Origin: Paludibacter sp.
GTDB taxonomy: Bacteria; Bacteroidota; Bacteroidia; Bacteroidales; Paludibacteraceae
DNA: 64,000 nucleotides
Reading direction: 5' to 3'
Assembly: GCA_029973975.1 (NCBI GenBank)
Contig: JARKQF010000354.1
Span: 1-64,000, forward strand
Shown: one piece after another, positions 27,290 through 55,194 of the stretch
How the letters are laid out: every line of letters begins with the position of its first letter
Numbering within the stretch: the first letter of the stretch is position 1
Position numbers and translations under genes: made by a program
The notes under the pieces: model-generated
The model's input: the letters and a program-made list of their open reading frames with translations, nothing else
Told to the model about the DNA's origin: nothing
Database searches by the model: none

Positions 27290-27323
27290 TAGTGGTTAGT
27301 AGTTAATTGGTTTAAGAGTTTAT

Positions 27324-27366
27324 CTTTTGTGTTCCCTTAGTTTATCTTTTGTTCCTTTTGTGGTTA
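27324..27366. repeat. Dispersed intergenic repeat, copy 2
   Basis: This copy begins CTTTTGTGTTCCCTTAGTTT and ends in TTTTGTGGTT. It matches the segment at 22762-22806 closely. It lies between the transporter gene and the nagA-like gene. Confidence 0.65.
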
Positions 27367-27387
27367 TAGAAATAAAATAGTTATATA

Positions 27388-28566: not shown

Positions 28567-29347
28567 AACTAAAACGGCTGCTACGGCTTCTTTTGCTAAA
28601 GATAAATTACAAATTAAAGCTTTCTCCACAAGAGATGAAATGGGTAAAAGAGCAGCGTCGGATATTGCCGAAGCCATTAAAGGTTTGCTACAAAACAAAC
28701 CGGTAATTAACATTATTTTTGCTGCGGCGCCTTCACAACAAGATTGTTTGCGTTATCTCACAGAAAACAAATCTATCGATTGGTCTCGCATCAATGCTTT
28801 CCACATGGATGAATACATCGGTCTTCCGGATGGGGCGCCTCAAAGTTTTGGGAATTTTTTGAAAAACCATATCTTTGCTAAAGTGCCGTTCCGGACTGTA
28901 AATTATATTAACGGCAGCAATCCTGATTATGAACAGGAATGTGACCGCTATGCAAAATTGCTGGCAGATAACCCGGTGGATATTGTTTGTCTGGGTATCG
29001 GGGAGAACGGCCATATTGCATTTAACGACCCTCCGGTGGCCGACTTTAATGATCCGAAAGCGATAAAAGTTGTGGAGCTGGATTTGGTTTGCCGCCAGCA
29101 GCAGGTAAATGACAAATGTTTTGAGGAATTGAAACAGGTGCCTGCACGTGCTTTTACGCTGACGATTCCTTCTTTGATGAAGGCTGAATATATGTTTTGC
29201 GTTGTGCCTGCAATTAATAAGGCTGAAGCAGTTTACAGGACGTTGAATGAGGATATCTCAGAAAAATGTCCGGCAACCATATTAAGAACAAAGGATAATG
29301 TGATATTATATCTGGATAATGAAAGTTCTAAAAAATTAAATTTATAA
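28553..29347 (+). CDS. NagB-like sugar-phosphate deaminase/isomerase with altered phosphate loop
   Basis: 264 residues from the preferred ATG at 28553 (MSYSETKTAATASF), which has CAGGG just upstream and follows the usual 14-bp overlap with nagA. An ATG at 28511 would add an unlikely 14 residues. The fold matches NagB: MDEYIGL (Asp86), GIGENGHIAFNDP (His154) and IPSLMKAEYMF. The LPTGGTP loop that binds substrate phosphate in E. coli NagB is replaced by FAAAPSQ (56-62). The Asp and Glu that flank the catalytic His in E. coli NagB correspond here to Glu151 and Asp159. It may therefore act on a different sugar or on a non-phosphorylated one. Confidence 0.82.
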   Translation: MSYSETKTAATASFAKDKLQIKAFSTRDEMGKRAASDIAEAIKGLLQNKPVINIIFAAAPSQQDCLRYLTENKSIDWSRINAFHMDEYIGLPDGAPQSFGNFLKNHIFAKVPFRTVNYINGSNPDYEQECDRYAKLLADNPVDIVCLGIGENGHIAFNDPPVADFNDPKAIKVVELDLVCRQQQVNDKCFEELKQVPARAFTLTIPSLMKAEYMFCVVPAINKAEAVYRTLNEDISEKCPATILRTKDNVILYLDNESSKKLNL

Positions 29348-31891: not shown

Positions 31892-32413
31892 ATGACAAAA
31901 AATACTAATAGCTATACCTCATTGCAATTAATATTATTGCTCCTGTTGAGGTTTTTGATAGGTTGGCATATCCTTTACGAAGGAATTTCAAAAGCGATAA
32001 TTCCGGATTGGACTGCTGCGGAGTATTTAAAAAACTCACAGTGGATTTTAACCGATTTTTTTCAGTGGATTGTGTCAAATCCATCCGTAATGTCGTTTGT
32101 CGACTTCATGAATGTATGGGGATTGATTCTAATCGGGACCGGCATAATATTGGGTTGCTGTTTTAAAATAGCAGCAGTTAGCGGCTTTGTGTTGTTGCTG
32201 TTGTATTACCTGGCAACACCTCCCATGATTGGATTGGCATATCAGGTGCCTGTGGAAGGCTCTAATCTGATTGTAAATAAGACCCTTATTGAGGCGGTAG
32301 TATTATTGTTGTTAGCTGTATTTCCTACCAATAAGTTTTATGGTTTAGATTATTTTTTGTGTAAATCTTTTAATAACAGAAAAGGCGATGGCAGACCAGG
32401 ATCAAATAAATAA
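31892..32413 (+). CDS. DoxX-family membrane protein
   Basis: 173 residues with four hydrophobic segments (LQLILLLLLRFLIGWHILYE, FMNVWGLILIGTGIILGC, AAVSGFVLLLLYYLA, ALVLLLLAVF-like). The EGISKA segment after the first helix is typical of DoxX. DoxX proteins are linked to quinone or thiol redox chemistry. It overlaps the next oxidoreductase gene by 26 bp, so the two are translationally coupled. A role in re-oxidising an exported oxidoreductase is attractive but inferred. Confidence 0.85.
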   Translation: MTKNTNSYTSLQLILLLLLRFLIGWHILYEGISKAIIPDWTAAEYLKNSQWILTDFFQWIVSNPSVMSFVDFMNVWGLILIGTGIILGCCFKIAAVSGFVLLLLYYLATPPMIGLAYQVPVEGSNLIVNKTLIEAVVLLLLAVFPTNKFYGLDYFLCKSFNNRKGDGRPGSNK

Positions 32414-33968
32414 TAAAGAAAAGGAAACTACTAAGAAGATATCACGCAGGAGTGCCCTGAAAGCGCTTGCAGGAGTCCCCGTTGCCGGATTTTTAGGTAT
32501 TAAGGTTTTTGATAAATTAAATTACGATAAAGATCAAAAGTTAAGATTGGTAAGGGAACTGGGATTGCATGACCTGGAACTGCCGGTTTCGGATTTTGGT
32601 AAAAAAGAAGCTTCCGGTGAACTAATTCGCATCGGGATTATCGGATTTGGAACCAGGGGTACGCAATTGGCAAGCGCATTAGGCTTTTTACATCCCGATG
32701 CTGTAGAGCAGCGTAAGAAAAATAATACTCTGAAAGATATTGTAAATCAGGAATACCTGAATGTTGCCATTACCGGTGTATGTGATGTTTTTGATATGAA
32801 TGCAGAAAAGGGGATGATTATAGCGAAAAATCCGGTACATCCGGACAAAGTAACACATCATCTTCCTGTGAAACGATACCGGACTTATCATGAGATGTTG
32901 GCTGACAAAGATATCGATGCTGTGATTATTTCTACTCCGGATCATCAGCATGGACATATGGCAATAGAGGCTACAAAAGCCGGTAAGCACATCTATCTGG
33001 AAAAAAGCGTAGCACATACAGAAGAAGAATTGAATGAATTGTACCGGCTTGTTAAACAGAGTGATATAACTTTCCAATTAGGACATCAGATTACGCAGAG
33101 TACTGTTTTTCAGCAAGCTAAAGAGATTATTCGCAAGAATGTACTGGGGAAAATCACCCTTATTGAAACTACAAGTAATCGCAATACAGCTTCAGGAGCC
33201 TGGATTCGTCATCTGGATGCAAACGGAAATCCGAAACCGGGCGATGAGCGGACTATCGACTGGAAGCAGTGGCTCGGGCCGGCTCCTTATGTACCTTTTA
33301 GTATCGATCGGTTTTATAACTGGACGAAATGGTTCGACTATGATACCGGGCTGATAGGACAGTTATTTACACATGAATTTGATGCGGTCAATCAATTGTT
33401 GCGTATTGGAATTCCAACAACTGTTATGTCTTCAGGAGGTATTTATTACTGGAAGGATAACCGGGAAATGCCTGATTCGTTACATTGTGTTTTTGAATAT
33501 CCGGATAAGGATTTGACTTTGATGTACAGCGGAAACTTAGCTTCCAGCAGAAGTCGCGGGAGGGTGTTTATGGGACATGATGCTTCCATGGAGTTGGGTA
33601 ATGATATTAAAATTACGATTGATAAAGATTCGACTCAGTTTAAAGGAGGTATTGCATCCGGCATTATTGACCCGTCTGCACCGGCATTATCGTTTAATCC
33701 TAATGCAGGTCAGATCGATGCGGTAAGTTCTGCATCTGAAAAGTACTTTGCCTCCAGGGGACTGTCGAATACGAAAATAAACGGATATAACATAGATGTA
33801 ACTCACCTCCATTTGCGGGAATGGGTAAACTGTATCAGAGAGCAAAAAACGCCAAGTGCAAATATCGACATGGCTTATGAAGAAGGAATTGCTTGTATCA
33901 TGGCACACAGATCTTATGTTGAAAAGAGGTTAGTCCGTTGGGATAAGGAAAAGAAAAAAATTATTTAA
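32388..33968 (+). CDS. Gfo/Idh/MocA-family oxidoreductase, long form with Tat-type signal
   Basis: 526 residues. The twin-arginine signal is internal to a charged N-terminus (KKISRRSALKALAGVPVAGF). The Rossmann motif is GIIGFGTRGTQLA, VCDVFD lies on the second strand, and the usual EKP is EKS (Lys206 kept, Pro to Ser). A large C-terminal domain includes TIDWKQWLGPAPYVPF and DYDTGLIGQLFTHEFDAV. The start at 32388 follows AAAGG and overlaps doxX. Exported sugar or glycoside oxidation is the likely role, coupled to DoxX. Confidence 0.88.
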   Translation: MADQDQINNKEKETTKKISRRSALKALAGVPVAGFLGIKVFDKLNYDKDQKLRLVRELGLHDLELPVSDFGKKEASGELIRIGIIGFGTRGTQLASALGFLHPDAVEQRKKNNTLKDIVNQEYLNVAITGVCDVFDMNAEKGMIIAKNPVHPDKVTHHLPVKRYRTYHEMLADKDIDAVIISTPDHQHGHMAIEATKAGKHIYLEKSVAHTEEELNELYRLVKQSDITFQLGHQITQSTVFQQAKEIIRKNVLGKITLIETTSNRNTASGAWIRHLDANGNPKPGDERTIDWKQWLGPAPYVPFSIDRFYNWTKWFDYDTGLIGQLFTHEFDAVNQLLRIGIPTTVMSSGGIYYWKDNREMPDSLHCVFEYPDKDLTLMYSGNLASSRSRGRVFMGHDASMELGNDIKITIDKDSTQFKGGIASGIIDPSAPALSFNPNAGQIDAVSSASEKYFASRGLSNTKINGYNIDVTHLHLREWVNCIREQKTPSANIDMAYEEGIACIMAHRSYVEKRLVRWDKEKKKII

Positions 33969-33986: not shown

Positions 33987-35147
33987 ATGAGAAGTAAAAT
34001 TTCATACAATTTATTGTTTATCGTGTGTGCTGTTTTATCTTTACAATTATCGTGTGCTCATGCATCGCGGTTACAGAAAAAGGAGGCAGGTGTTGCATGG
34101 GGAAAAATAGAATCTTATTTTACTCCCCCCGCAGACTATATCAATAATTATGGAAATTTTCGTTCCCCGTTAAAATTTTATAATGGTGATACTGTGGCAA
34201 CCAGAGAAGACTGGTTGTTACGCAGAAAAGAAATAAAAGATACCTGGATGGGGTTGATGGGTATGTGGCCTCCGGTTCTGACTGACCAGAAGTTTGAAAT
34301 AATAGAAACGGTTGAGAAGGATACTTATCTGCAACATAAGGTACGTTTTTACTGGACTCCTAATGAACAAACAGAAGGTTATTTGCTGATACCCCGTAAC
34401 AAAGGGAAGAAGCCTGCTGTAATTACTGTGTTCTATGAGCCCGAAACTGCTGTGGGTATGGGAAACAAGCCAAATCGGGATTTTGCTTTGCAACTTACTA
34501 AAAGGGGATTCGTTACTTTGTCATTAGGTACTACCCGGACTTCATTGGAAAAAAACTATTCCATTTATTATCCCGGCAGGGAATATGCCAGTATACAGCC
34601 TTTGTCTGTGTTAGCCTATGCTGCTGCAAATGCATTGGAAGCATTGTCGAAAGTAAAGGAAGTCGATGCCGACCGTATTGGTATTGTCGGACATTCTTAT
34701 GGAGGTAAATGGTCTATGTTTGCTTCATGTCTGTATGATAAGTTTGCCTGTGCGGCTTGGATTGACCCTGGAATTGTTTTTGATGAAACCAAAGCGGGTG
34801 GGGTAAATTACTGGGAACCCTGGTACTTGGGTTATTATCCGCCACCATGGACAAACACATGGAGAAAAACAGGTATGATTGAGGATGCAAAAGGTTTATA
34901 TCCCTATTTGATGAATAACAATTACGATCTGCACGAGCTACATGCTCTGATGGCTCCGCGTCCTTTTCTTGTGTCCGGAGGTTCTTCCGATCCGGTGGAA
35001 AGATGGATTCCGTTGAACCATTCAATTGCTGTAAACCGATTGCTGGGCTACAAAAACCGGGTTGCCATGACCAACCGCCCCAAACATGAACCGAACCCGG
35101 AGTCAAATGAAATTGTATACTCGTTTTTTGAGTGTTTTCTTAAATAG
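33987..35147 (+). CDS. Secreted alpha/beta-hydrolase (acyl esterase or peptidase-like)
   Basis: 386 residues with an N-terminal signal, possibly a lipoprotein (LQLSCAHAS). An accessory N-terminal region leads into an alpha/beta-hydrolase fold: GYLLIPRNKGKKPAVITVF, nucleophile elbow GIVGHSYGG (Ser237), an acid candidate in GGSSDPVERW and a late His in KHEPNPES. It resembles acetylxylan-esterase or dienelactone-hydrolase-like proteins. Removal of an ester substituent from a carbohydrate is probable. It is 18 bp after the long oxidoreductase and ends the region-3 plus-strand unit. Confidence 0.8.
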   Translation: MRSKISYNLLFIVCAVLSLQLSCAHASRLQKKEAGVAWGKIESYFTPPADYINNYGNFRSPLKFYNGDTVATREDWLLRRKEIKDTWMGLMGMWPPVLTDQKFEIIETVEKDTYLQHKVRFYWTPNEQTEGYLLIPRNKGKKPAVITVFYEPETAVGMGNKPNRDFALQLTKRGFVTLSLGTTRTSLEKNYSIYYPGREYASIQPLSVLAYAAANALEALSKVKEVDADRIGIVGHSYGGKWSMFASCLYDKFACAAWIDPGIVFDETKAGGVNYWEPWYLGYYPPPWTNTWRKTGMIEDAKGLYPYLMNNNYDLHELHALMAPRPFLVSGGSSDPVERWIPLNHSIAVNRLLGYKNRVAMTNRPKHEPNPESNEIVYSFFECFLK

Positions 35148-35341: not shown

Positions 35342-38300
35342 ATGAAAAAAAGCTTTGCAACAAAGTTAATAACCTTTGCAGGTATCCTTCTTATTCTATT
35401 TGTTCTCGTACTTGATTTACAAGCACAAAGACAAAAAAAAACTACACAGAAGAAAACAGCACAAACCGAATATTACGACCTGTATCAGCATGTTGGACAG
35501 TCTAATCAGCCGCAGCACAACCAACGGGCCGTGCTGGGTGATGTAATGGTTTATGGTGATGTATTTTCTGGTTCAACAACTTTTCAGCAACAAATTGAAA
35601 ATAATGGGTTTTCGGTCAGGAAGATTGAAAACAATGAAATTGACTTAATTAATACTGCTACTGCCCGAAACCTTATCATATCAGGGGAGAAAACCGTTCA
35701 TCCCAATGTACGTAAAAAAACAGATGACTTTGTAAAACAAGGTGGCAATGTCTTTATGGTTGGAACAAAAGCGTTTGATTATGCGCCTGTTCCCGTAAAT
35801 CCTGTTCCTATAGTCGACTTTGCCAATCAGCAATCTTATAGTGTTGTGAAGCAGGAGAGAAAGGAAAGAGCTTTGTCGCTTGACGAACCAACCATCCGGG
35901 TAGGTAAAGATGATATGGGTAATAATGCCCTGGAAATATTTACTGTCGTACGTGCGATGCCTGATTATATGGCTAAAATCTCCATTGCAGACAAAAAATC
36001 TGCAACCCGTTCGGTTATTACTTTTTCTGCCAAAGGTAATGCATATATGGATCTGCTGGCTCTTGAAATTGTGGATATGGATAATGTGAAATGGTTTGCT
36101 TTTGTTCCATTAAGTTATCAGTGGGAAAATTACGCGATATCCATGGCCGATTTTATTCCCGAAAACTGGAGTGATGCTCAAACGTCCTATCCACTATTAG
36201 ATCCCAATAAAGTTGAAACCTTGTATCTGGGTGTAAATTTGATGACTTTGTGGAAAGAGAAAGTGATGTACCTGGGTTTGAGTAATGTTGCTTTGGCCGA
36301 AAACAGTCAAACCTATTACACTCCTACTTCGGCTCTGAATGCATTAAGATTACCTTTTTCTGAAATTGACATCACGATTCCCGACTGGACATTCAATCCG
36401 ATGGGGCAGGCAAAAGCATTGCAGGGTAGTCACACGCTCGTACGCAAGGAAACTTATCCGTTTGGACAGACACAGGTTGTAAATGAACCCAATGTCTATA
36501 CAATTCCACGATCCCTTGTAATTCATAAGGGAGTTTCAACCGGTACAGACACTAAGAAAGAATTTGATTTCAGAGATGAGAGAGAAAAGCGTATCATAAC
36601 GTTGTTTGAAACGGGTAATTCTTATCCAGCCTTACAGATAGCACGACTGGAAATTCCAACAGGAGGTATGTATGCAGGTTCTACGCAGACACTTTTCGGT
36701 ATTCAACCAACTTCATTTGTGAATAATCAGATTTATGTCAAATCTTTGACAGACGCCCTCATGTTTGTAAATACTAAGCCTGTTGTTGCGGCTGTAATGA
36801 TTAATACCTCTTCTTCAACATCCGCGGGTACAATGGTTACGCCCAAATTGAAAGTAACATTGAAGAATCCGTTAAGTCAATCGGTAAGTGGTCAATTGCG
36901 GGTAGATATCGCACAGGGTTCCATCGTCAAAGAAATACCGGTTGCCATAGGTGCTCAAAAAAACACGGCAGTGGAAGTGCTACTTCCGGAAGTTCCCGTT
37001 GACTTCCCAATGAGCAAATTTAACTGGAATGTTACTTTTAATAGTGGCAGTCAGCAAGATTATTTTGAAGATAAGGTAGATATCGAAAGGTCGATGTTAG
37101 TAGCCTTCAGACATTTAATCAATGCTCAAAATCATTTTCCCGATGGCAGATACAGTAATCACTATTTCGGAGATGCATACGGTGTAAGGGCTATGTTTGC
37201 TTTTTTGGAGTATGTTAAAAAAAATCCGGATTGTTTACAACGAAACACAGATATTTGGCAGTCTATTTCATTACAGGATATTGAAAATAGTGCTTATCGT
37301 TTTTATGATATGCTCGTTGAGCGACAATTAGAAAACGGGGCGCTTCCCATGGGATATGAAGAACATGCAAGAGGTTATAATGTCGCGGATGGCGGACAAA
37401 TTGTGCTTTCGATTGCTCAATCATTGCGCTATATTGAAGACGAAGCTAAAAAAAACAGTTATCTGAACCTGATTTATAAATTTGCTGACTGGACTGAAAC
37501 TTATTACATTGATAGTGCCAGGTCGGAAGAGGTTAAGAGATTATATCCGGAAGAATATCTCAAGGGAAATGGAACTGTCGGTCATTATGGGTTGAAACAA
37601 AGTGGTTCAAAACAAATTATTTACGGACCTTCGTGGGTGGGTTCATGTATTTTACCTGTACATGTCTACCTTGCCTGCTGGAATAAGCGCCAGGATGACA
37701 CTAAACAGAGAAGCTATGAATCAATTGCTGCCAGAAATATAGATTTCTACATCAATTCCATGTCGGCAAGAGGCTATTATCAGGCAGAAGCATTGTTCTG
37801 GACCTATGTGTCGGTACAGGACCCGGTATTGAAAAATACAATGAAAAAATCGCTTGATGAGACACTGATACCGTATTTGACAAGAGGAACTGAGAATGAT
37901 ATGTTCGGTGTGGGAGGAAGAAATACCCTGTATGCATTGTCGATGATGTATTATCGACGATTCGTAAATGAACAGTCCAGTCTTCGGGCTACGCAGTTGA
38001 AATATCTCTGGACATTTGCTTCTGAAAGTTCATGTAACGGGATGGGACGTATTTCTGAAGCTTTGCCGAAACCTGGGCATGGGGAGTCGCTGGCTGCAAC
38101 AAAATATGCTGCATTAAGTGCTCTCTGGTGCATGGAATTGCTGGAACCCGCATCAACATTATTTAAAGGTCTTATCGTTGAAGAAGAAAAGCCTTCTGTG
38201 TCATTAACAACTGATAAAACTGCCGGGAGCACAATATCATTGTCAATCAGGGCTTCCAATAATCAGCCGGAAAATGAAGACAAAGTATGGATTGATTTGA

Positions 38301-39052
38301 ACAACGATAAAAAAAAAACTCCTGACGAGAAAGTAGTAACTTTTGGTGAAAAGGTTTCATATACCATTTCATCTCCGGAGATTGGAATTTACGGACCGGT
38401 ATGGACACTGGATTGTTCTGATAACGAGTTGACAAAGTTAAATGTGCAGGGAGCTGCAAAAACATTGAATCAATTATCCTGCTATAAAAACAAGTTAGAT
38501 ACTCTTGACATCAGCAATTGCTCAATCTTATCTTCTGTGTCATGTCAGAATAACCTTTTGAAATTGATAGTTACCGGAAATAATCAAAATCTCTCCAGTC
38601 TGAATATGTATAGCAATAGAGTAGGGGTAGATGATATGCGAGAATTAATGTTAGGTTTGCCTGACAGGACAAACACAGCCCCAGGTAAATTGACATTGTA
38701 CTATTCTATGAATAGCCTGTCACAACCGAATCAAAATCAATTTACTCAGGATCATGCCGATATTGCAGTAGAAAAAAACTGGAAAACTTATGTTGCTATT
38801 CCTGGTGGCACTGAATTTAATGGACCATATTATACAACGTCTAATGTTAAATTGGTTATGCCACTTAATTTAAGAATATATAGCTTGAACAGAGAATTAA
38901 TTGTTGAAACAGATTCTATTCAGCAGTTTTCAATCTATGATATGGAGGGGCAATTAATGATCAGACAGAATGGCAGTGGAAAATTTATGCTGCCTGTTGG
39001 TATGTATGTAGTACAAACAAATGAATATAATACTAAAATTACACACAAATGA
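35342..39052 (+). CDS. Large secreted protein: toroid-like domain, LRR module and T9SS tail; function unknown
   Basis: 1236 residues with a signal peptide (KLITFAGILLILFVLVLDLQ). Residues ~50-140 resemble a class-I-amidotransferase-like fold (LGDVMVYGDVFSG, FVKQGGNVFMVG). Residues ~140-570 are beta-rich. Residues ~580-940 are helical with repeated hairpins (NHYFGDAYGVRAMFAFLEY, YEEHARGYNVADGGQIVLS, GPSWVGSCILPVHVYL), suggesting an alpha/alpha toroid as in polysaccharide lyases and some glycosidases. Residues ~946-1156 carry the WIDLN...DEKV / IYGPVW / LRR module shared with the next four genes. The C-terminus is a T9SS tail (FSIYDMEGQLMIRQ). I do not recognise the family. It starts the region-4 operon and overlaps the next gene by 4 bp. 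Confidence 0.8.
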   Translation: MKKSFATKLITFAGILLILFVLVLDLQAQRQKKTTQKKTAQTEYYDLYQHVGQSNQPQHNQRAVLGDVMVYGDVFSGSTTFQQQIENNGFSVRKIENNEIDLINTATARNLIISGEKTVHPNVRKKTDDFVKQGGNVFMVGTKAFDYAPVPVNPVPIVDFANQQSYSVVKQERKERALSLDEPTIRVGKDDMGNNALEIFTVVRAMPDYMAKISIADKKSATRSVITFSAKGNAYMDLLALEIVDMDNVKWFAFVPLSYQWENYAISMADFIPENWSDAQTSYPLLDPNKVETLYLGVNLMTLWKEKVMYLGLSNVALAENSQTYYTPTSALNALRLPFSEIDITIPDWTFNPMGQAKALQGSHTLVRKETYPFGQTQVVNEPNVYTIPRSLVIHKGVSTGTDTKKEFDFRDEREKRIITLFETGNSYPALQIARLEIPTGGMYAGSTQTLFGIQPTSFVNNQIYVKSLTDALMFVNTKPVVAAVMINTSSSTSAGTMVTPKLKVTLKNPLSQSVSGQLRVDIAQGSIVKEIPVAIGAQKNTAVEVLLPEVPVDFPMSKFNWNVTFNSGSQQDYFEDKVDIERSMLVAFRHLINAQNHFPDGRYSNHYFGDAYGVRAMFAFLEYVKKNPDCLQRNTDIWQSISLQDIENSAYRFYDMLVERQLENGALPMGYEEHARGYNVADGGQIVLSIAQSLRYIEDEAKKNSYLNLIYKFADWTETYYIDSARSEEVKRLYPEEYLKGNGTVGHYGLKQSGSKQIIYGPSWVGSCILPVHVYLACWNKRQDDTKQRSYESIAARNIDFYINSMSARGYYQAEALFWTYVSVQDPVLKNTMKKSLDETLIPYLTRGTENDMFGVGGRNTLYALSMMYYRRFVNEQSSLRATQLKYLWTFASESSCNGMGRISEALPKPGHGESLAATKYAALSALWCMELLEPASTLFKGLIVEEEKPSVSLTTDKTAGSTISLSIRASNNQPENEDKVWIDLNNDKKKTPDEKVVTFGEKVSYTISSPEIGIYGPVWTLDCSDNELTKLNVQGAAKTLNQLSCYKNKLDTLDISNCSILSSVSCQNNLLKLIVTGNNQNLSSLNMYSNRVGVDDMRELMLGLPDRTNTAPGKLTLYYSMNSLSQPNQNQFTQDHADIAVEKNWKTYVAIPGGTEFNGPYYTTSNVKLVMPLNLRIYSLNRELIVETDSIQQFSIYDMEGQLMIRQNGSGKFMLPVGMYVVQTNEYNTKITHK

Positions 39053-39726
39053 AAAAAACTATTCTTATCGCGCTTATCGCATTTATTACTACTAATATCT
39101 GGGCGCAAGAACCAGTAATCAAGTTGATAACAGAAAAAAAAACAGGTGAAAACCTGTCGTTGAAAATTAAAGTAAGCAAACCTGAATTTCAGAGTAAGGT
39201 GTGGATTGATTTAAATGGAAATAATATACAAGATCAGGGTGAGCAGGTAACTGTTTTTGATGAATCGGTAAATTATACTGTACAGGCTAAAGAAATAAAT
39301 ATTTACGGTCCGGTTTGGGTGTTGGGATGTATTCAAAATAATATCTCACGCATTGATATCAGTAGAAATACACAGTATTTAAGTCAATTGTATTGTGGAT
39401 ATAATCTGATAAATGAGCTCGACCTTAGTGCAAATCAAAAACTCTCCTTGTTGAGTTGCTTCAATAATAGGTTGAAATTTATTAAGTTAAGTGATAGTCC
39501 GAAGTTGAAAACCATCAATGTCAGTGGCAATTGTATTGATGAAAATAACATGCTCGAGATTGTTACTTCTCTGAAGACGCATGATAAAAACAAACCGGGA
39601 GAAATAATTATAACCAACAGCAATAAAAAAGAGCAAAATGTTATTACAGACCAGATGGTGCAGGTGCTGAAAGAAAAAGGATGGAAAGTTTACAAGCTTG
39701 TTAAAAACAAGAAAGAAGTAATGTAG
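39049..39726 (+). CDS. Secreted LRR-module protein without T9SS tail (cassette 1, gene a)
   Basis: 225 residues: signal peptide (MKKTILIALIAFITTNIWAQ) and one copy of the module only. The module has a calcium-loop-like segment (VWIDLNGNNIQDQGEQVTVF), IYGPVWVLGC, then three to four LRR strands (LSQLYCGYNLINELDLS, LSLLSCFNNRLKF) and a closing EKGWKVYK. It ends without the sorting domain of its paralogue at 41583, and no tail remnant is visible in any frame after the stop. It is therefore predicted to be periplasmic. Its ATG overlaps the stop of the preceding gene. Confidence 0.75.
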   Translation: MKKTILIALIAFITTNIWAQEPVIKLITEKKTGENLSLKIKVSKPEFQSKVWIDLNGNNIQDQGEQVTVFDESVNYTVQAKEINIYGPVWVLGCIQNNISRIDISRNTQYLSQLYCGYNLINELDLSANQKLSLLSCFNNRLKFIKLSDSPKLKTINVSGNCIDENNMLEIVTSLKTHDKNKPGEIIITNSNKKEQNVITDQMVQVLKEKGWKVYKLVKNKKEVM

Positions 39727-39781
39727 GAAACGCATAAGTGTTTAAAAACAAATAAGTGTTTTAATTTTTGATATTTTAGAT

Positions 39782-41527
39782 ATGAAAAGCAAAATAATAT
39801 ACCTGTTTTTTCTTTTACTGATTTCATCTGTTATTCATGCTCAGGATACAGAACCATATATTTCAATCAGATCAAATAAAAAAATAGGAGAAACCTTGTC
39901 GTTAAGTATGAAAGCCTCCAATGCAACCAATGAACAGTTGATTTGGATTGATTTGAATGGTAATGGTCAGAAAGATGATGGTGAGCAAGTTACAAGTTTT
40001 GGTGTGAGTACCCCCTATGTAAAGAATGCCGATGAAATCCGTATTTATGGTCCTGTATGGACTTTTAGTGTAGCATACCAGCAACTGACACATTTAGAGT
40101 TAAGTCCCAATCATCCCAATTTAAATCAAATGTGGTGTTCTTATAACTCAATAGGGGAAATAGACCTGAGTGATAATCTCAATTTATCTTATTTGTCTTG
40201 CCAGTCTAACGACTTAAAAAGGTTGGTTTTCAACCCGGGTTCAAAGATAAAAACAATTAGTTGCAGGGAAAATGAACTTGGAAGTGATGCGGTAACTGAA
40301 TTAATCAATTCTTTACCCACGAAAAATCAAGGTGATGGAGCGGAAATAATTGCAGTTGATATTGCCGCTAAATCAGAGCGAAATATTGTAAACCGAGAGC
40401 ATGTTAATCTGGCAAATGCTAAAAACTGGGCTTTAATCAATTACAATAAAGGAGCTCCGGAGCCCTATAACCCAACCGATATCACGAAAGAAGTTTTACG
40501 GGAAGGTTTATATACCTATTTCGGATGGGGTAAAACTTATCCTCAAAATAATATCACTGATCAGGAAGTAACAATACTGAGTAAAACCCAAACAGAGGCA
40601 TACGAATATTGGCATATCAAATATTTAGTTGATGTGGTGGGGGATGTCAAAGAATACTCATATGGTTATTTGCTGTTGCCGGCGAACAGAGGGAGTAAAC
40701 CTCTGCCATTGGTTTTAGCATTACATCCTACGGGTGCAGGACTTGGAAAGGACAGAGTAATGGGGATTTATGAATCAGAAGCTGTTGATGTTGCAGAAGA
40801 GAAAAAACGAATTGCCAGTCAATATGCCCACGAATTGGGGCTTAAAGGTGATTTTATAGTCTTTGCGCCAGACAGAGCAGGCTATGGTGAAAGAAGACTA
40901 TTGGATGAAAGCATTGATTATTCAGAACAAATGACCGAATATCAAAATTACTTACGTACTTTCCGCCCCGGTTGGAGGCTAACTTCCGGTAAAAATGTAT
41001 GGGATATACAACGGGCTCTCGATTTTTTGTTGGAATATGACTTTGTAGACCGGGGGAAAGTGGGTGCAATTGGGTATTCTCTTGGAGCTGCTGATGCGCT
41101 TATGTCGATAGCTTGCGATGACAGGATTAAAACAGCTGTGGTTAATTCAGGTTCCAATTTACATTACAGAGAAGACTTATGGAATCAGGATCAGACATTG
41201 CGGTCATTTCTTAGCAATGCCAGCTCTCAGAATTTGGGAGAAATTGTCAATTTAATGGTCATGCTCACTGCTGGAAAATCGATGGTTTACCTGTGGTCGA
41301 CAGCTGATCCCTATGATGCTGGCGGCCCTCATTTTTTGGAAGGTTTCCGCAATATTTATAATGTCATTAACCTAAAGTGGAGGCAATATGGTGTTACAGA
41401 TCTGTCTCTTTACATGCATTCGCAGGGCCATGATTTTCCTGCAGAGGCAAGAGCACACGCGTATCAGTGGCTGAAAGATAAATTGTATGGATCAGGCTTG
41501 GTCGATCCTTCAACTGTTGAGGATTAG
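39782..41527 (+). CDS. LRR-module alpha/beta-hydrolase esterase without T9SS tail (cassette 1, gene b)
   Basis: 581 residues: signal peptide (MKSKIIYLFFLLLISSVIHA), LRR module (~22-230; WIDLNGNGQKDDGEQVTSFG, IYGPVWTFSVAY, SYLSCQSNDLKRLVF), then an alpha/beta-hydrolase (~235-575). The hydrolase has GYLLLPANRG, ALHPTGAG, FAPDRAGYGERR, nucleophile elbow GYSLGAAD (Ser433) and HSQGHDFP (His550), like acyl or acetylxylan esterases. It ends right after the hydrolase, while the close paralogue at 42545 continues into a T9SS tail. A periplasmic deacylase is predicted. It lies 55 bp after gene a. Confidence 0.85.
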   Translation: MKSKIIYLFFLLLISSVIHAQDTEPYISIRSNKKIGETLSLSMKASNATNEQLIWIDLNGNGQKDDGEQVTSFGVSTPYVKNADEIRIYGPVWTFSVAYQQLTHLELSPNHPNLNQMWCSYNSIGEIDLSDNLNLSYLSCQSNDLKRLVFNPGSKIKTISCRENELGSDAVTELINSLPTKNQGDGAEIIAVDIAAKSERNIVNREHVNLANAKNWALINYNKGAPEPYNPTDITKEVLREGLYTYFGWGKTYPQNNITDQEVTILSKTQTEAYEYWHIKYLVDVVGDVKEYSYGYLLLPANRGSKPLPLVLALHPTGAGLGKDRVMGIYESEAVDVAEEKKRIASQYAHELGLKGDFIVFAPDRAGYGERRLLDESIDYSEQMTEYQNYLRTFRPGWRLTSGKNVWDIQRALDFLLEYDFVDRGKVGAIGYSLGAADALMSIACDDRIKTAVVNSGSNLHYREDLWNQDQTLRSFLSNASSQNLGEIVNLMVMLTAGKSMVYLWSTADPYDAGGPHFLEGFRNIYNVINLKWRQYGVTDLSLYMHSQGHDFPAEARAHAYQWLKDKLYGSGLVDPSTVED

Positions 41528-41582
41528 ACGGTAAATAATTTGTGACAATATACAAAAAATTAACAATGTAAATACTAAGAAA

Positions 41583-42491
41583 ATGAAGAAAAAAATCACA
41601 CTTATTTTGACACTCTTTTTGACCATAAACATTTTGTTGGGTCAGGACGGTCCTGCTATTGTTTTTGAAACTTCAAAAGCAAGTGTTTCTCTTTCAATTA
41701 AAGTCAGCAAAACTGAATATGAGGACCAGGTTTGGATTGATTTGAATGGAAATGGTGACCAAGATGCAGGTGAAAAAGTGACAACGTTCAATGCACAGGT
41801 TGTATATCCACTTGAATCTTCAACCGTACGAATTTTTGGTCCCATCTGGACATTCAATTGTGTGAGTAATGAAATCACCAGTTTGGATGTTAGTGGTGCC
41901 GCTGGTACTTTAAATGTGCTTTCCTGTGGTTCGAATTTGCTTACTAGCTTAGATCTCAGTACTTGTGAAAAGCTGGCAACGGTAGCTTGCGAAAAAAACT
42001 TGCTTACCAGTATTATCCCGAGTAGTTATCTTACCTCAGTTAATATGTACAGTAACCGCCTGGATGAAGTTGCTATGACAGAGTTCGTAAATGGTTTGCA
42101 GGACAGGACAGGTAAAACAGCAGGTTCATTAACCTTGTATTATGGTGTATCCTCGGTTTCTCAACCCAATCAGAACTTTTTCACGCAGGCTCATGCTGAT
42201 ATTGTTTCACCAAAGAACTGGATAACCTATGTTGCTTCTCCATCCAAAACAGTGTTTACAGGACCTTACTCACAACTGGCAAGTATAGGGAATGTGGCAA
42301 ATGACGATGGACTGAAGATTATCCCGGAAGAAAACGGTATTCTTGTTGAAACTGAAAAACCAATGTCGGTTTCTGTGCATAATCTGACAGGTCAATTGTT
42401 GTATTCATCTCTGATCGTAAACGGTCAGTTGTTTATTCCATTGAAAAAGAGCATCTATATTGTAAACAATAAGAAAGTAACTCTAATTTAA
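41583..42491 (+). CDS. Secreted LRR-module protein with T9SS tail (cassette 2, gene a)
   Basis: 302 residues: signal peptide (MKKKITLILTLFLTINILLG), module ~24-225 (VWIDLNGNGDQDAGEKVTTF, IFGPIWTFNC, LNVLSCGSNLLTSLDLS, ending SPKNWITYV), then a T9SS-type tail (VSVHNLTGQLLYSS, then SIYIVNNKKVTL). It is the tailed paralogue of the 39049 gene and most like the module of the 1236-residue protein (both have LTLYYxxxSxSQPNQN). A surface binding role is inferred; no catalytic domain is present. Confidence 0.75.
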   Translation: MKKKITLILTLFLTINILLGQDGPAIVFETSKASVSLSIKVSKTEYEDQVWIDLNGNGDQDAGEKVTTFNAQVVYPLESSTVRIFGPIWTFNCVSNEITSLDVSGAAGTLNVLSCGSNLLTSLDLSTCEKLATVACEKNLLTSIIPSSYLTSVNMYSNRLDEVAMTEFVNGLQDRTGKTAGSLTLYYGVSSVSQPNQNFFTQAHADIVSPKNWITYVASPSKTVFTGPYSQLASIGNVANDDGLKIIPEENGILVETEKPMSVSVHNLTGQLLYSSLIVNGQLFIPLKKSIYIVNNKKVTLI

Positions 42492-42544
42492 ACTGTTCAT
42501 TTATAGATGTTTTTGCTTTAAAATAATTATATGAATTTTTTATA

Positions 42545-44521
42545 ATGAGAAATCGAATATCATACATCATATTACTTTTGTTGTCATCCTTCATCCTGCA
42601 TGCGCAAGTGACAACACCCTATATCGCGGTTAAAACAAATAAGCAACCTGGCGAAAATATTTCATTGAGCATCAAAGCCTCAAATGCTGCCAATGAACAA
42701 TTAATCTGGATTGATCTTAATGGTAATGGACAGCAAGATATGGGTGAGCAGGTAACAGTTTTTGGTAAAAGTGTCAATTATGTAAAAAATGCAGAAGAGA
42801 TTCGTATTTATGGCCCGGTTTGGACTTTCAGTGCTGCATATAACCAACTGACCAGTTTGTTTGTAAGTGCCGATCATAATTTCCTGACTCAGATATGGTG
42901 TGCTTATAACGCGATTGAGGAAATTGACTTGTCTAACAACACAAGTGTATCCTATCTATCCTGCCAGTCGAATAAACTGAAAAGACTGGTGTTCAATAAT
43001 GCTTCAAATATCAAGACTATAAGTTGCAGGAACAATGAACTGGGCAATGCCGCCATGACGGAATTAATCAATTCATTGCCGGTCAGAAATGCTACTGATG
43101 GTGCTGAATTAAGTGCTGTTGACGTAGCTTCCAAGTCAGAACTGAATATCGTGAACCGTGAACATATTGTTCTTGCAAGTGCTAAAAACTGGGTAATTAT
43201 CAATCACAATAATGGGACACCGGAAGTATATAACCCAACTGAAATAACCAAAGAAGTACTGCGGGAAGGCTTATATTCTTATTTTGGATGGGGAAAGACT
43301 TATCCGCAAAACAACATAACCGACCCGGAGGTAACTATTTTGAGTAAAACACAAAAAGAAGGGTATGAGTATTGGCATCTTAAATATTTGGTAGATGTGG
43401 TGGGTGACCTCAAAGAGTATGCTTATGGTTATTTATTGATACCTGCTAACAGAGGTGATAAACCCTTACCCCTGATTTTAGCCCTTCATCCTACGTCAGA
43501 CATTGGTAAAGATCGGGTGATGGGAATATACGCTTCTGAACCTAAAGACGAAGCTGACGCTAAAGCTCGTATTGCACGACAATATGCCCATGATTTGGGA
43601 GTAGATGGTAACTTCATCGTGTTTGCACCAGACAGGGCAGGATATGGTGAAAGAAGATTGTTGGATGATAGTATTGCATATACTGAACAGATGTCGGCCT
43701 ATCAAGCTTACTTGCGTACTTTCCGTCCCGGATGGCGTTTAACTTCCGGTAAGAATGTGTGGGATATCCAGCGGGCACTGGACTTCCTGCTGGAATATGA
43801 TTTCGTTGACAGGGAAAATGTCGGGGCAATCGGTCATTCGCTTGGTGCTGCCGATGCCATAATGATCATTGCTTCCGACGACAGGGTTAAGACCTCAGTT
43901 GTAAACTCGGGTTCGAATCTGCATTATCGTGAAGATTTATGGACACAGGATAACGCCTTGCGTGCATTTTTAAACAATGCCAGTTCGCAGGCATTGGGTG
44001 AATTGGTGAATGTGATGGTTATGGCAACAGCCGGTAAGTCGTTGTTATACAATTGGTCTATCCTTGATCCTTACGATTCTGGGAATCCAAATTTCATTGA
44101 AGGATATCGTATGATTTGTGATGTGGTAAATTTAAAATGGCGGCAATACGGCGCTACTGATATTGCCCTTTATTTGCACAGCAATGGTCATGATTTTCCT
44201 AATGAAGCAAGAGCGCTTTCCTATCAATGGCTGAAAGAAAAATTAAAATTTACTGGCATTGTTAATCCACCTTCGTCAGTAGATGTACTAAAAAAAAACA
44301 CAGAGGAAGATGATTTCAAGGTGTGGGGAGCAAGAGCTTGTATTCATGTTCAGCGAAATACAGAGGAAGTAAATCCTACAGATTTGTTTGTCTTTAACAC
44401 CTTGGGGCAAACTGTTTCACACCGGGTGATTAAAGAAAATGAAGTTATTATTAAAAACTTACCGAAAGGTGTTTATGTAGTCAGAATTGGTTTATTCAAC
44501 GAGAAGGTTGAGATAAAATAA
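42545..44521 (+). CDS. LRR-module alpha/beta-hydrolase esterase with T9SS tail (cassette 2, gene b)
   Basis: 658 residues: signal peptide (ISYIILLLLSSFILHAQ), LRR module (~22-230; WIDLNGNGQQDMGEQVTVFG), alpha/beta-hydrolase (~235-575; FAPDRAGYGERRLLDDSI, GHSLGAAD with Ser432, HSNGHDFP) and a T9SS tail (LFVFNTLGQTVSHRVI, LPKGVYVVRIG). It aligns with the 39782 product almost throughout until the latter stops. It is predicted to be a surface-exposed acyl esterase on a substituted polysaccharide. Confidence 0.85.
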   Translation: MRNRISYIILLLLSSFILHAQVTTPYIAVKTNKQPGENISLSIKASNAANEQLIWIDLNGNGQQDMGEQVTVFGKSVNYVKNAEEIRIYGPVWTFSAAYNQLTSLFVSADHNFLTQIWCAYNAIEEIDLSNNTSVSYLSCQSNKLKRLVFNNASNIKTISCRNNELGNAAMTELINSLPVRNATDGAELSAVDVASKSELNIVNREHIVLASAKNWVIINHNNGTPEVYNPTEITKEVLREGLYSYFGWGKTYPQNNITDPEVTILSKTQKEGYEYWHLKYLVDVVGDLKEYAYGYLLIPANRGDKPLPLILALHPTSDIGKDRVMGIYASEPKDEADAKARIARQYAHDLGVDGNFIVFAPDRAGYGERRLLDDSIAYTEQMSAYQAYLRTFRPGWRLTSGKNVWDIQRALDFLLEYDFVDRENVGAIGHSLGAADAIMIIASDDRVKTSVVNSGSNLHYREDLWTQDNALRAFLNNASSQALGELVNVMVMATAGKSLLYNWSILDPYDSGNPNFIEGYRMICDVVNLKWRQYGATDIALYLHSNGHDFPNEARALSYQWLKEKLKFTGIVNPPSSVDVLKKNTEEDDFKVWGARACIHVQRNTEEVNPTDLFVFNTLGQTVSHRVIKENEVIIKNLPKGVYVVRIGLFNEKVEIK

Positions 44522-44576: not shown

Positions 44577-46487
44577 ATGAAAAAGCTAGTCATTAACCTT
44601 ATAAAGCTAAGGGATTTCGGGAATAAACAGGTAACAATGCACTTATATAAATTCGTTACAGTATTATTTATGTTGACTTTTGCCGTACAGGTAGAAGGAC
44701 AATCAACAACCGTGTTTTACGATAATTTTAACCGATCTACTGCTAATCTTTTTGAGGGCGGTGAACCGGTTATAACCTGGACTCCGGTAACTACCAATGG
44801 AGCAGGAACATTAACTACTTATAACAATGTGTTCAGAATTATGTCGGGAATTGGGACTGCAAACACAGGATCCCCGGGAAGGACTTACATGACAGGCCCA
44901 TTGTCGTCATATCATCCTGCGTTCAATAATGCATTGACAGAAAACACCGGAGATATTACCTGGACTTTTAATGTTAGAAATTTTAAAACACAGCTCAATG
45001 AATTTGCACTCGGAAATGATAACTATGGTACAGCAGTAGTATTAGCTGCAAACAATGCAGATTTACTGGCGGAAGGTACACATGGTTACGCGTTGGTTTT
45101 CTTGCAGATTTCAACAACGAACAGACCAAATCCGCGGTTAGTCAGATTTACAAATGGTTTGGGTGCGAATGCTAATTTTACAAATATTGTAGGGCCGGAT
45201 GCAACTTTTTATTCTGCCAATCACTATTTAAGCTATAAAGTTGTGTATTCACCTGTAGATGATTCTTGGAAATTATTTTACAGGTTCGATGGATTAACAA
45301 CCGTTCCAGCTACACCGGGTGCTTCTTTTAAAGATCCTGCAGTTGAAGATGAGGCAACGGGTTATTATACACAACTTGGAACATCAGTAGTTGACAACAC
45401 CTATACGGATTTGGAAATGGCAGTTTGCGGTTTTTTCTATAATCATGGAAATACTGCAACCAGTGCTAATTCTGTTCAGCAATTTGACAATTTTAAGGTA
45501 GAGGTAGCTGCAGAGGCTCAGTCCATTGACGCAACACTTTCTGACTTACAGGTGAGTTTGGATGGAACAAATTTTGAGACTCTAACCATGTTCAACTCAA
45601 CAACTAAAACGTATCAATATTATCTGACTAAAGGGCATGCAATACCAACTGTATCAGCCACAAAAAATGACCCTGCTGCTTCTGATCCGATAATTGTTCA
45701 GGCGACAAATTTAAATGGAACACAAGCTGAACGGACCGCTACGGTAACTGTTACTGCCGAAGATAATTCGTTTGTTGAAGTCTATTCTATTGAGTTTATC
45801 GAAACCGATTATATTTTCATTAGTGGATTGGGTAACCGGGACGGTGGAGTTGATGGCTTTGTCCACAATAACTTATATTTTTATGCCAATGCTGCTTTCG
45901 GAAACAATAAGTTTCAAGGTAAAACTTATACCAGATTAGCAACAAACAGCACATATTCGTCATTGCAACTTCCTCAAATGACTGAAATAGGAACCTTGGA
46001 CTTCTATATCAGAAAAAACAATGTGGATGTTGAGGGCAACATCAAGGTGTCGTATAAAAAAGACGACAATGACTGGACTGTGGTAACTGATCTCGGAGAT
46101 GAAAACAGCCTGGAGTTTGTGAAGAAGTCGGTCTTTATCAATCAGCGTGCAGATATAGCATTACTGGTAAGAATCGAGATAACGAAGAATGGTGATGTGG
46201 TTAGTGACGCCGGATACTACCTGGATGATTTTGCTTACACTGCATCAGATATTGGAACTGCAAATTCGGACATCTACATAAAGGATTTTAAGGTAAGGAG
46301 TATTGAGGGTGGTATTGCAGTTGAAGCTCGAGAAGGCCAGGTAGATGTTTATACGGCTTCAGGTTTGCTATTACAAAGTGCACGTGTTCAAGGAATGCAT
46401 GAATTCAAGAACCTACATCCGGGTGTTTACTTTATTCAGGTTCTCGATGGTGAACAGCGCAAAATAGTTAAATATTTGATGCATTAA
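44577..46487 (+). CDS. Modular secreted protein: jelly-roll module, cadherin-like domain, T9SS tail
   Basis: 636 residues from the ATG at 44577. An ATG at 44637 (MHLYKFVTVLFMLTFAVQVE) gives a cleaner signal peptide and may be the true start. The jelly-roll-like module (~42-305) has VFYDNFNRST, ITWTFNVRNF, GTAVVLA, PRLVRFTNGLG and QFDNFKVEV, shared with four later genes. A cadherin-like beta-sandwich (~312-405; LSDLQVSLDG to VYSIEFIE), another beta domain (~410-555) and a T9SS tail (VDVYTASGLLLQSARV, LHPGVYFIQV) follow. No catalytic motif was recognised, so carbohydrate binding is the likeliest role. Confidence 0.75.
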   Translation: MKKLVINLIKLRDFGNKQVTMHLYKFVTVLFMLTFAVQVEGQSTTVFYDNFNRSTANLFEGGEPVITWTPVTTNGAGTLTTYNNVFRIMSGIGTANTGSPGRTYMTGPLSSYHPAFNNALTENTGDITWTFNVRNFKTQLNEFALGNDNYGTAVVLAANNADLLAEGTHGYALVFLQISTTNRPNPRLVRFTNGLGANANFTNIVGPDATFYSANHYLSYKVVYSPVDDSWKLFYRFDGLTTVPATPGASFKDPAVEDEATGYYTQLGTSVVDNTYTDLEMAVCGFFYNHGNTATSANSVQQFDNFKVEVAAEAQSIDATLSDLQVSLDGTNFETLTMFNSTTKTYQYYLTKGHAIPTVSATKNDPAASDPIIVQATNLNGTQAERTATVTVTAEDNSFVEVYSIEFIETDYIFISGLGNRDGGVDGFVHNNLYFYANAAFGNNKFQGKTYTRLATNSTYSSLQLPQMTEIGTLDFYIRKNNVDVEGNIKVSYKKDDNDWTVVTDLGDENSLEFVKKSVFINQRADIALLVRIEITKNGDVVSDAGYYLDDFAYTASDIGTANSDIYIKDFKVRSIEGGIAVEAREGQVDVYTASGLLLQSARVQGMHEFKNLHPGVYFIQVLDGEQRKIVKYLMH

Positions 46488-52903: not shown

Positions 52904-53956
52904 ATGAAAACAAACTTGAAAACCGTGCTATCTCTCAGCATGTTCTTGTTGAGTGCAATCTTTGTATTTGCTCAATCACCGGTGGAAACAACCGTTTTTA
53001 TGGACGATTTCGAGGGAACGTTTCCAACCAGTGGGAATCCTGAAACTACCTATACAATAGTTAGACAAACAATTTCCGGTGATGCTCCTGACGATCCGTC
53101 TTATCAAAGTGGGATGTTGCGTTTCAATGCTCCGAAAAGTTCAGCGACAAGAAATGGTGTGTTCGGTAATTTATCTGATTTTGCTGCTCCATTTGCATCA
53201 AAGCTGAATGAAATAAATGCAGACTCGGTTGTGTGGACGTTCAATATGAGGGCTAACAGAGAAACTACTTCTGGATTTAGCGATGATAAATTCGGAATAG
53301 CGACAGTGTTATTGTCTGATGTTGCTAACTATAACACAGCTAATGGATATGCTGTAATTTCAATGGGGGCAAATGCTTCCAGCAGAAGTTTTCGGTTGGC
53401 CAAATTCTCTAATGGCCTGGATGCAGATACAAAATTTACAGATCTTATTATTGGTTTGCCGGGCAGTGCTATGACCTATGCTGCTTTGAAAGTGGTTTTC
53501 GTAAAAAACACCAATACCTGGAGCTTTTACGGGAGAGCGGATTCTGGAGCTTTTTCGGATCCATCACAAGGTTCCTATACTTTTTTTGGTTCTGTAGTTG
53601 ATGACACATTCATAAATACATCCATGTCGAACTTTGGTTTTTTTATGATGTGTAAATCATACACTACATCTACAACGTATAATATAGACAATTTTGCTGT
53701 GAAAACTTATATTACAGCTTCAGGTGTGTCTCAATACGAAGTTGATAAGTTATTTAAAACCCACTTGCTCCCCGGAGCCATTGAAGTTGAAACGACATCA
53801 GCAATAGCAACTTTGCATGATATTACTGGAGCTGTTCAACATAGAGTATTTGTGAATGGTAAAACTGCCATCAAAGTACCTAACAAAGGATTGTATATAC
53901 TGAAGATTGAATTATCGGATGGGCGGACCGGAGCAAAGAAGATTACCATTGATTAA
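52904..53956 (+). CDS. Secreted jelly-roll-module protein with T9SS tail
   Basis: 350 residues: signal peptide (LSLSMFLLSAIFVFAQ), one jelly-roll-like module (~27-265; TTVFMDDFEGTF, VVWTFNMRANRE, FGIATVLLSD, SFRLAKFSNGLD, YNIDNFAVKTY) and a T9SS tail (ATLHDITGAVQHRVF, VPNKGLYILKIEL). There is no catalytic domain. It is a near-duplicate of the following gene (54112) and shares the module with 44577, 55319 and 58250. A surface glycan-binding role is inferred. Confidence 0.78.
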   Translation: MKTNLKTVLSLSMFLLSAIFVFAQSPVETTVFMDDFEGTFPTSGNPETTYTIVRQTISGDAPDDPSYQSGMLRFNAPKSSATRNGVFGNLSDFAAPFASKLNEINADSVVWTFNMRANRETTSGFSDDKFGIATVLLSDVANYNTANGYAVISMGANASSRSFRLAKFSNGLDADTKFTDLIIGLPGSAMTYAALKVVFVKNTNTWSFYGRADSGAFSDPSQGSYTFFGSVVDDTFINTSMSNFGFFMMCKSYTTSTTYNIDNFAVKTYITASGVSQYEVDKLFKTHLLPGAIEVETTSAIATLHDITGAVQHRVFVNGKTAIKVPNKGLYILKIELSDGRTGAKKITID

Positions 53957-54047: not shown

Positions 54048-54111
54048 ACTTCATTGCCGAAATTAATACAAACAATTATTGAAATATTTTACACACTCAA
54101 AAACAAGTATT

Positions 54112-55194
54112 ATGAAAACAATCTACTTTTTAAAAAAATTAATGAGAGCCTCCTTCCTGGTAGCTTTAATGTGCTTTACATTTTCACTCTCAGCCGGAGA
54201 GACGCTGGTTGAAACCACTGTTTTTGCGGATGATTTTAGTGGTGAAAACCTCTCTGGAGGTACTCCGGCTACTACTTATACTTTTTTAAAACAGAATATT
54301 TCCGGAACAGCAGCAGCAGATCCTTCGTATAATAATAATATGATGCGTGTGCCTGCACCTAAGTCTTCTGCAAACAGAAATGCTGTATTGGGTGGTTTGT
54401 CGGTTTATTCTGCACCGTTTGCCTCAAAATTAAGTGAAATAGATGCCGACTCGGTGGTTTGGACGTTTAATTTTAAAGCTAACAGAAATACAACTTCCGG
54501 TTTTACAGATGCAGATTTTGGAATTGCAACTATACTTTTAGCTGATGCCGCAGATTACACTTCTGCCAATGGTTATGCTGTTGTTTCCTATAATAAGAAC
54601 AGTAGTACCACACGAAGTTTCCGACTGGTAAAATTTACCAATGGGCTAAATGACAATACTAAATTTACTGACTTAGTTATAGGTATAGTTGGTGATGCAA
54701 ATTTATATTGCAGTTTCAGAGTTACCTATATTAAAAGTTCAAATATCTGGAAGTTTTATTGTAGAAATGATGCAGGTGTTTTTGCTGATCCTGCTCAGGG
54801 AACTTTCACTACTTCAGGTTCAGCTATAGATGATACTTTCGTAAATACGCCAATGTCGTACTTCGGCTTTCATATCATGTGTAAATCTTATACTACTGAC
54901 ACTAATTTAGATGCAGACAACTATACCGTAAGAACATATAAAACGGATATTCTTCAATCCAATGAAAATTTACAGGCTAATACCGGTTTATTTAAAACCC
55001 GCACTTTGTCTGGGGCTGTTGAAATTGAAACAGTATCAGCACAAGCCACTTTGTGTTCGCTTACCGGTGCAGTACAGCAAATTGTAAACATTAAGGGTAA
55101 GGCTACAATCAAGGTGCCGAATAAAGGATTGTATATTTTAAAGGTTGCATTACCTGATGGACGTTCGGGTATCGAAAAAGTTTTAATTCAATAG
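54112..55194 (+). CDS. Secreted jelly-roll-module protein with T9SS tail (duplicate)
   Basis: 360 residues from the preferred ATG at 54112 (MKTIYFLKKLMRASFLVALM signal). An ATG at 54079 adds 11 polar residues. The module (~35-275) repeats TTVFADDFSGEN, VVWTFNFKAN, FGIATILLAD, FRLVKFTNGLN and DADNYTVRTY. The T9SS tail is ATLCSLTGAVQQIV and VPNKGLYILKVAL. It is closely similar to the preceding protein along its length, so a recent duplication is likely. It has its own promoter (copy B) and a terminator after it. Confidence 0.78.
   Translation: MKTIYFLKKLMRASFLVALMCFTFSLSAGETLVETTVFADDFSGENLSGGTPATTYTFLKQNISGTAAADPSYNNNMMRVPAPKSSANRNAVLGGLSVYSAPFASKLSEIDADSVVWTFNFKANRNTTSGFTDADFGIATILLADAADYTSANGYAVVSYNKNSSTTRSFRLVKFTNGLNDNTKFTDLVIGIVGDANLYCSFRVTYIKSSNIWKFYCRNDAGVFADPAQGTFTTSGSAIDDTFVNTPMSYFGFHIMCKSYTTDTNLDADNYTVRTYKTDILQSNENLQANTGLFKTRTLSGAVEIETVSAQATLCSLTGAVQQIVNIKGKATIKVPNKGLYILKVALPDGRSGIEKVLIQ

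Follow-up and report, generated by a model that had tools for sequence, protein, structure and literature searches.

A paralogous LRR-hydrolase pair with a T9SS tail on one member only, in a probable polysaccharide utilization locus of Paludibacter sp.

Genes 39782 and 42545 (named, like all genes here, by their first position in the window, the whole 64-kb stretch of DNA analysed) encode true paralogues: an ancient LRR-hydrolase pair in which 42545 alone carries a T9SS tail. The simplest reading would be a surface/periplasm split of the two putative esterases, with location predicted from the sequence. As an overall explanation we consider it rather probable that the members of this ancient pair, encoded in a polysaccharide utilization locus, reach different compartments because one has the tail and the other lacks it. 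Each esterase gene follows a gene for an LRR-only protein, and the four genes are arranged head to tail in the following setting, their start positions being those of the preliminary description:

35342 to 39052, + strand: exported protein, 1236 aa, with an LRR module from ~38183 and a T9SS tail (match 38900-39049) at the C-terminus
39049 to 39726, + strand: LRR-only protein, 225 aa, without tail, mature pI 8.9
39782 to 41527, + strand: LRR plus alpha/beta-hydrolase (probable esterase), 581 aa, without tail; probable triad Ser433-Asp509-His550
41486 to 41524, + strand: 13-residue stub past the last hydrolase helix of 39782, aligning with the start of the 42545 linker
41583 to 42491, + strand: LRR-only protein, 302 aa, mature pI 4.8, with a candidate T9SS-like tail at ~42300-42488
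42545 to 44521, + strand: LRR plus alpha/beta-hydrolase (probable esterase), 658 aa, with a T9SS type A tail (linker plus tail ~44285-44518); probable triad Ser432-Asp508-His549
44577 to 46487, + strand: next exported protein after 42545, tailed

One LRR module is common to the first five of these proteins. It makes up the C-terminal end of 35342, the N-terminal portion of the two esterases and, ahead of any tail, almost the whole of the LRR-only proteins. The start codon of 39049 overlaps the stop codon of 35342 (ATGA), while the four genes are separated by gaps of 55, 55 and 53 bp, as previously reported, with another 55 bp before 44577. No pair of gaps was clearly more alike than shuffles (34 of 500 shuffles were as good as the best pair), and a sigma-70 scan gave no excess over shuffles (37 vs 40.4). 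Terminator-like sites exceed shuffles (17 vs 8.2), none of them within the four short gaps.

The two esterases are 73% identical over 581 residues, and their LRR parts group together in the tree with support of 100/99. Their codons differ at 0.23 of first, 0.13 of second and 0.52 of third positions, and the pair is therefore old and constrained. For the LRR part, NG86 gives a dN/dS of 0.10 with a dS of 2.2; dS is undefined for the whole pair and for the hydrolase part. The branch of the LRR module is longer in 39782 than in 42545 (0.35 vs 0.15), with unique changes of 12 vs 4 (p 0.08), 14 vs 6 (p 0.12) and 10 vs 11 (p 1.0) against three outgroups; in the hydrolase domain, 39782 showed no faster change with any of four outgroups (p 0.21-0.69). 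A serine, an aspartate and a histidine are invariant in all six aligned hydrolases, are present in both esterases and are taken as the probable catalytic triad. The hydrolase parts weakly match the Pfam models for dienelactone hydrolase, BAAT_C and Abhydrolase_6, and no Pfam hydrolase family reaches its cut-off for either protein; esterase activity and substrate are putative assignments from such matches below cut-off.

All four proteins, 39049, 39782, 41583 and 42545, start with a hydrophobic leader ending in A or G just before Q (read by eye), in agreement with the Q-rule that a passage of PMC5837995 describes for substrates of Bacteroidetes signal peptidase I. The N-terminus of 39049 also matched the NCBIfam Stx B-subunit model at 14.1 bits (cut-off 201), which we take as a chance match of the leader. 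Of the T9SS machinery, the two components searched, SprA/Sov (2759 bits) and PorU (1191 bits), are both present in the genome with scores over cut-off.

Tails were sought with curated models and with a profile built from 23 tails of the same genome (from 30 fetched tail loci), none of them from the window. This profile divides the 36 window proteins into ten tailed ones (at least 12.6 bits) and the rest (at most 4.5 bits). The tail of 42545 passes TIGR04183 in NCBIfam (23.7 bits, cut-off 23) and scores 22.2 bits with the own-genome profile and 19 bits, below the cut-off of 27, with the Pfam tail model (PF18962). Among the neighbours, 35342 scores 17.8 bits in the protein scan, below the cut-off of 23, and slightly exceeds that cut-off, with 23.1 bits, in the genome search with neighbours, whereas 44577 stays under it in both (19.8 and 22.3 bits) with 21.1 bits in the own-genome profile. 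For 41583 neither Pfam (E up to 0.1) nor NCBIfam (E up to 0.5) gives a tail match, and the protein is absent from the 95 TIGR04183 matches that the whole genome yields at E 0.001; with the own-genome profile it reaches 14.3 bits, equalled by none of 2000 shuffles. Its structure model (mean pLDDT 76; tail blocks 59-74; last dozen residues 39-45) has seven strands in the tail. Foldseek with this model gave no match at E 0.001, the RgpB CTD (7pq4) appearing at rank 34 (probability 0.85, E 0.35) below several internalins. The profile and the predicted fold thus weakly indicate a T9SS-like tail in 41583. The model of 42545 (pLDDT 44) was too poor for use. The earlier claim that both proteins of the second cassette end in T9SS tails accordingly stands for 42545 on a curated model, while 41583 has a candidate tail on the own-genome profile.

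The first cassette, on the other hand, was rightly described as tail-less. Neither 39049 nor 39782 has a tail in Pfam at E 0.1, in NCBIfam at E 0.5 or by the own-genome profile, where both behave like shuffles (4.5 bits and 343 of 2000 shuffles as good for 39049; 806 of 2000 for 39782), and no remnant was found in six frames of the stretches 39600-39900 and 41400-41700. A tail concealed by sequencing error was rejected: there is no remnant, and a single base error cannot explain the missing tails because ~60-75 residues, the length of a tail, would not fit into 55 bp. A type B tail or a lipoprotein was likewise rejected for both proteins, with no Pfam or NCBIfam tail family matched and a cleavage site without Cys (by eye).

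The surrounding genes encode a regulator, Gfo/Idh oxidoreductases, SusC-like and SusD proteins, CBM96 domains, two SASA esterases and an NAGPA-type phosphodiester glycosidase. Amino-sugar genes lie at 25928-29347, with NagA over cut-off and a NagB-like protein and an MFS transporter resembling NagP under cut-off. The locus is probably a polysaccharide utilization locus for a GlcNAc-containing glycan, the substrate being suggested by its gene content. Among the 14 same-strand ORFs of at least 150 aa from 35342 to 62710, nine are tailed, one is SusC-like and two (49854 and 51334) show a lipobox-like cysteine on inspection by eye, leaving 39049 and 39782 as the only ones with nothing beyond a plain leader. 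In the same gene run the tandem pair 52904/54079 is 55.7% identical and carries a tail on both members (15.5 and 12.6 bits); this pair is more diverged yet both its members are tailed, and the tail difference is therefore not the rule here.

Mechanistically, 42545 and the LRR adhesin 41583 would be exported by the T9SS, to remain at the surface or be released, and 42545 would deacylate the polymer outside the cell. The two tail-less proteins, the esterase 39782 and the basic LRR-only 39049, would cross the inner membrane only; their periplasmic targets would be fragments imported through SusC/SusD (46740, 49854), whose amino sugar could then be processed via the NagP/NagA/NagB-like genes. A passage of PMC10202324 describes the T9SS CTD as necessary and sufficient for export, and a plain leader therefore predicts the periplasm. 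However, the Sporocytophaga cellulase MYP_327, which has no CTD, is reported in the part of PMC6247017 consulted to be abundant in the extracellular fraction as well as in the periplasmic one, and a missing tail is therefore no proof of a periplasmic location. The proposal of a surface and a periplasmic set thus holds for the esterases as the simplest reading, judged from SprA/PorU, the leaders and a 39782 triad kept without a tail or a cleavage-site Cys; the derivation of both sets from one cassette duplication does not.

Export of the tail-less 39049 and 39782 by another route, in outer-membrane vesicles or with a tailed LRR partner, so that all four proteins act outside, is in our judgement unlikely. 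The example of MYP_327, for which the authors suggest vesicles in the same portion of PMC6247017, speaks for it, as do the overlap of 39049 with 35342 and the LRR module common to all five proteins; no sequence signal for such export was found. We give still less credit to a reading in which the shared LRR module would be the common docking part of one enzyme system on both sides of the outer membrane: the tailed 35342, 41583 and 42545 would assemble on the surface and the tail-less 39049 and 39782 would form the matching periplasmic set, the basic 39049 partnering acidic LRRs. That 39782 and 39049 are decaying leftovers is hardly credible. Both do lack the tail that most neighbours carry, and the LRR module of 39782 has the longer branch and, with two of three outgroups, exceeds that of 42545 in unique changes, but the frames are intact, the triad residues are retained, a third-position difference of 52% goes with a protein identity of 73%, and the hydrolase domain of 39782 showed no faster change.

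As to the direction of the change, no outgroup with the LRR-hydrolase architecture was found to polarise it. Single-domain hydrolase relatives L019 and L022 end right after the helix that closes the hydrolase of 39782, while relatives L018 and L021 continue beyond it into an unrelated-looking end. The protein 39782 itself continues for 13 residues, four of them identical to the start of the 42545 linker. A motif resembling this end precedes 5 of 24 tails, and 25 of 292 other blocks contain it (p 0.06); for a stricter form the counts are 2 of 24 and 3 of 292. The stub may possibly be a trace of a lost tail, and this weak evidence makes loss in 39782 appear more likely than gain in 42545.

The source genome is 85.7% complete and 5.7% contaminated, in 358 contigs. 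No orthologues were found in 47 same-genus genomes at E 1e-10, and no hydrolase relative of the pair closer than ~32% among 99 other nearby genomes (including those 47) or in draws of 393 (order), 395 (phylum) and 395 (class) genomes, which overlap and include the own genome. Apart from the own genome, the order draw and the phylum draw gave hydrolase-only matches of 28-32% in two genomes each, and the class draw gave none. Of 393 genomes, only the own one contained the core of 35342, and a scan of the genome contigs returned one chance-like match of 15 residues (L016). Two further genomes within the genus encode tail-less proteins that end in a similar LRR cap (L024 in G038, L032 in G010), and a tail-less LRR protein is therefore not unusual by itself.

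The two-gene cassette that had been described as a tandem duplicate is confirmed in its esterase half only, 39049 and 41583 not being sisters. They are 36% identical, against 45% (tail included) or 52% (module) between 41583 and the C-terminal module of 35342 (35342C). A tree that includes seven outside modules places 41583 with 35342C (90/90) and 39049 with the esterase LRRs (86/86), supports that fall short of the tree tool's mark of 95/80; forcing 39049 and 41583 as sisters carries a cost of 15.7 log units (AU p 0.026). When only the five window modules are used, three alignments give AU 0.994-0.996 for the split of 41583 with 35342C and AU 0.0066-0.0093 for the pairing of 39049 with 41583. 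The p-values of all these tests are somewhat favourable because the module groups were named after the identities had been seen. By part, the 39049/41583 pairing gives AU 0.043 for the LRR part, 0.045 for the C-cap and 0.46 for the N-cap, where 41583 does not discriminate 39049 from 35342C (AU 0.67); without the C-cap it is borderline (AU 0.052). Rapid evolution of 39049 was rejected as the reason for its distance, since its relative-rate counts of unique changes show no excess (27 vs 23 and 22 vs 25), and the counts do not mark 41583 as fast either. From these comparisons, 39049 is best described as a basic tail-less LRR protein of separate origin.

A single cassette duplication splitting both pairs, as originally proposed, thus fails on the different nearest relatives of the LRR-only proteins and on the lack of a rate excess in the counts for 39049. 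In the explanation we favour, the LRR-only genes would have come into the two sets independently: 41583 would share a parent with the LRR-plus-tail end of 35342, and 39049 would share one with the esterase LRRs. A single tandem duplication of an LRR-only/LRR-esterase unit, followed by loss of both tails in the first cassette, is very improbable: gene order and gap lengths suit it, as do the undecided N-cap and the borderline result without the C-cap, but the pairing is rejected over the whole module and over the LRR part alone, the identities are uneven (36% vs 73%) and 39049 shows no rate excess; its rescue would require recombination inside 41583 masking the history. Possible, if doubtful, is an ancestral unit of LRR-plus-tail followed by LRR-esterase that was duplicated once, the LRR-plus-tail copies being the C-terminus of 35342 and 41583, with 39049 inserted later and only the esterases differing in tails. 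The gene order, 35342(C-term)-39049-39782 and 41583-42545, and the 41583/35342C grouping agree with it; the unequal divergence (path length 1.25 for 35342C-41583 vs 0.50 for the esterase LRRs) and the gaps without visible homology argue against it. This history is compatible with the sorting account.

Among the papers listed by literature searches, none described such a tail-split paralogue pair in its title or abstract opening. Two enzymes 73% identical, one tailed and one not, constitute a natural experiment on the T9SS tail and a clean pair for asking whether the tail alone decides location. If localization follows the tail, a paralogue would have moved across the outer membrane by loss or gain of one domain.

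Compared with known systems, the T9SS type A cargo (TIGR04183/PF18962) is matched by the 42545 tail, which passes the NCBIfam cut-off. The candidate tail of 41583 has seven predicted strands, with the RgpB CTD among the listed fold matches, but 41583 fails the curated models, and 39049 and 39782 have no tail. All five LRR proteins match the InlJ model NF033187 (E 1.1e-4 to 9.9e-9), with scores of 20.7-34 bits against a cut-off of 1700, and the first ten Foldseek rows for 41583 are internalins, none at E 0.001. Two cysteines (C115 and C136 of 41583) are invariant across the five modules, and Listeria InlJ has a cysteine ladder; P. gingivalis InlJ is described as a surface adhesin in a passage of PMC5915736. 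Unlike InlJ, the LRR modules here are short and two are fused to a hydrolase. With alpha/beta-hydrolase esterases the pair shares GxSxG and Ser-Asp-His, and weak PDB matches include MHETase-like and acetyl xylan esterases; the N-terminal LRR module and the failure to reach any family cut-off set it apart. Polysaccharide utilization loci have surface and periplasmic enzymes of the SusG/SusA kind. According to the same portion of PMC6247017, MYP_327 of Sporocytophaga myxococcoides and its homologue CHU_1280 both occur in periplasm and medium. Both systems place the same enzyme class on the two sides of the outer membrane, as proposed here, and the tail-split esterase pair is neat, not unprecedented; it differs from both in consisting of close paralogues in one gene run, distinguished by a T9SS tail.

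The mature LRR protein 39049-39726 has a calculated pI of 8.9, against 4.5-5.6 for the remaining four LRR modules, and this basic protein may bind to an anionic partner. Elsewhere in the genus, two large proteins, L024 (genome G038) and L032 (G010), have an LRR C-cap as their C-terminus, without a T9SS tail.

Between 34900 and 47000, the scan returned 17 terminator-like stem-loops, about twice the 8.2 found in shuffled sequences; none lies within the four short gaps that separate the genes starting at 39049, 39782, 41583 and 42545 (55, 55 and 53 bp) and precede 44577 (55 bp). The exported protein encoded at 44577 is about 30% identical to that at 52904, itself one member of a tandem pair (52904-53956 and 54079-55194, 55.7% identity) in which each protein bears a T9SS tail.

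With regard to the secretion system, the window's own genome contains PorU-like loci that score above the family cut-off on three contigs, C308, C275 and C336, of which one is complete. The other two are partial, with the front part on C275 and the rear on C336, and may represent one further copy split across contigs, a paralogue or contamination.

The hydrolase 33987-35147, with a lipobox-like cysteine (judged by eye), exceeds the cut-offs of the fungal glucuronyl esterase, Peptidase_S9 and Abhydrolase_7 models, and a short part of it resembles the probable LRR-esterase 42545 (31% over 64 residues). A 3-keto route is possible in the window: it would combine the 3-keto-disaccharide hydrolase-domain protein 17907-21284 with the oxidoreductase 32388-33968, which is similar to the glycoside 3-dehydrogenase model BT_2158_fam at 118 bits versus a cut-off of 750.
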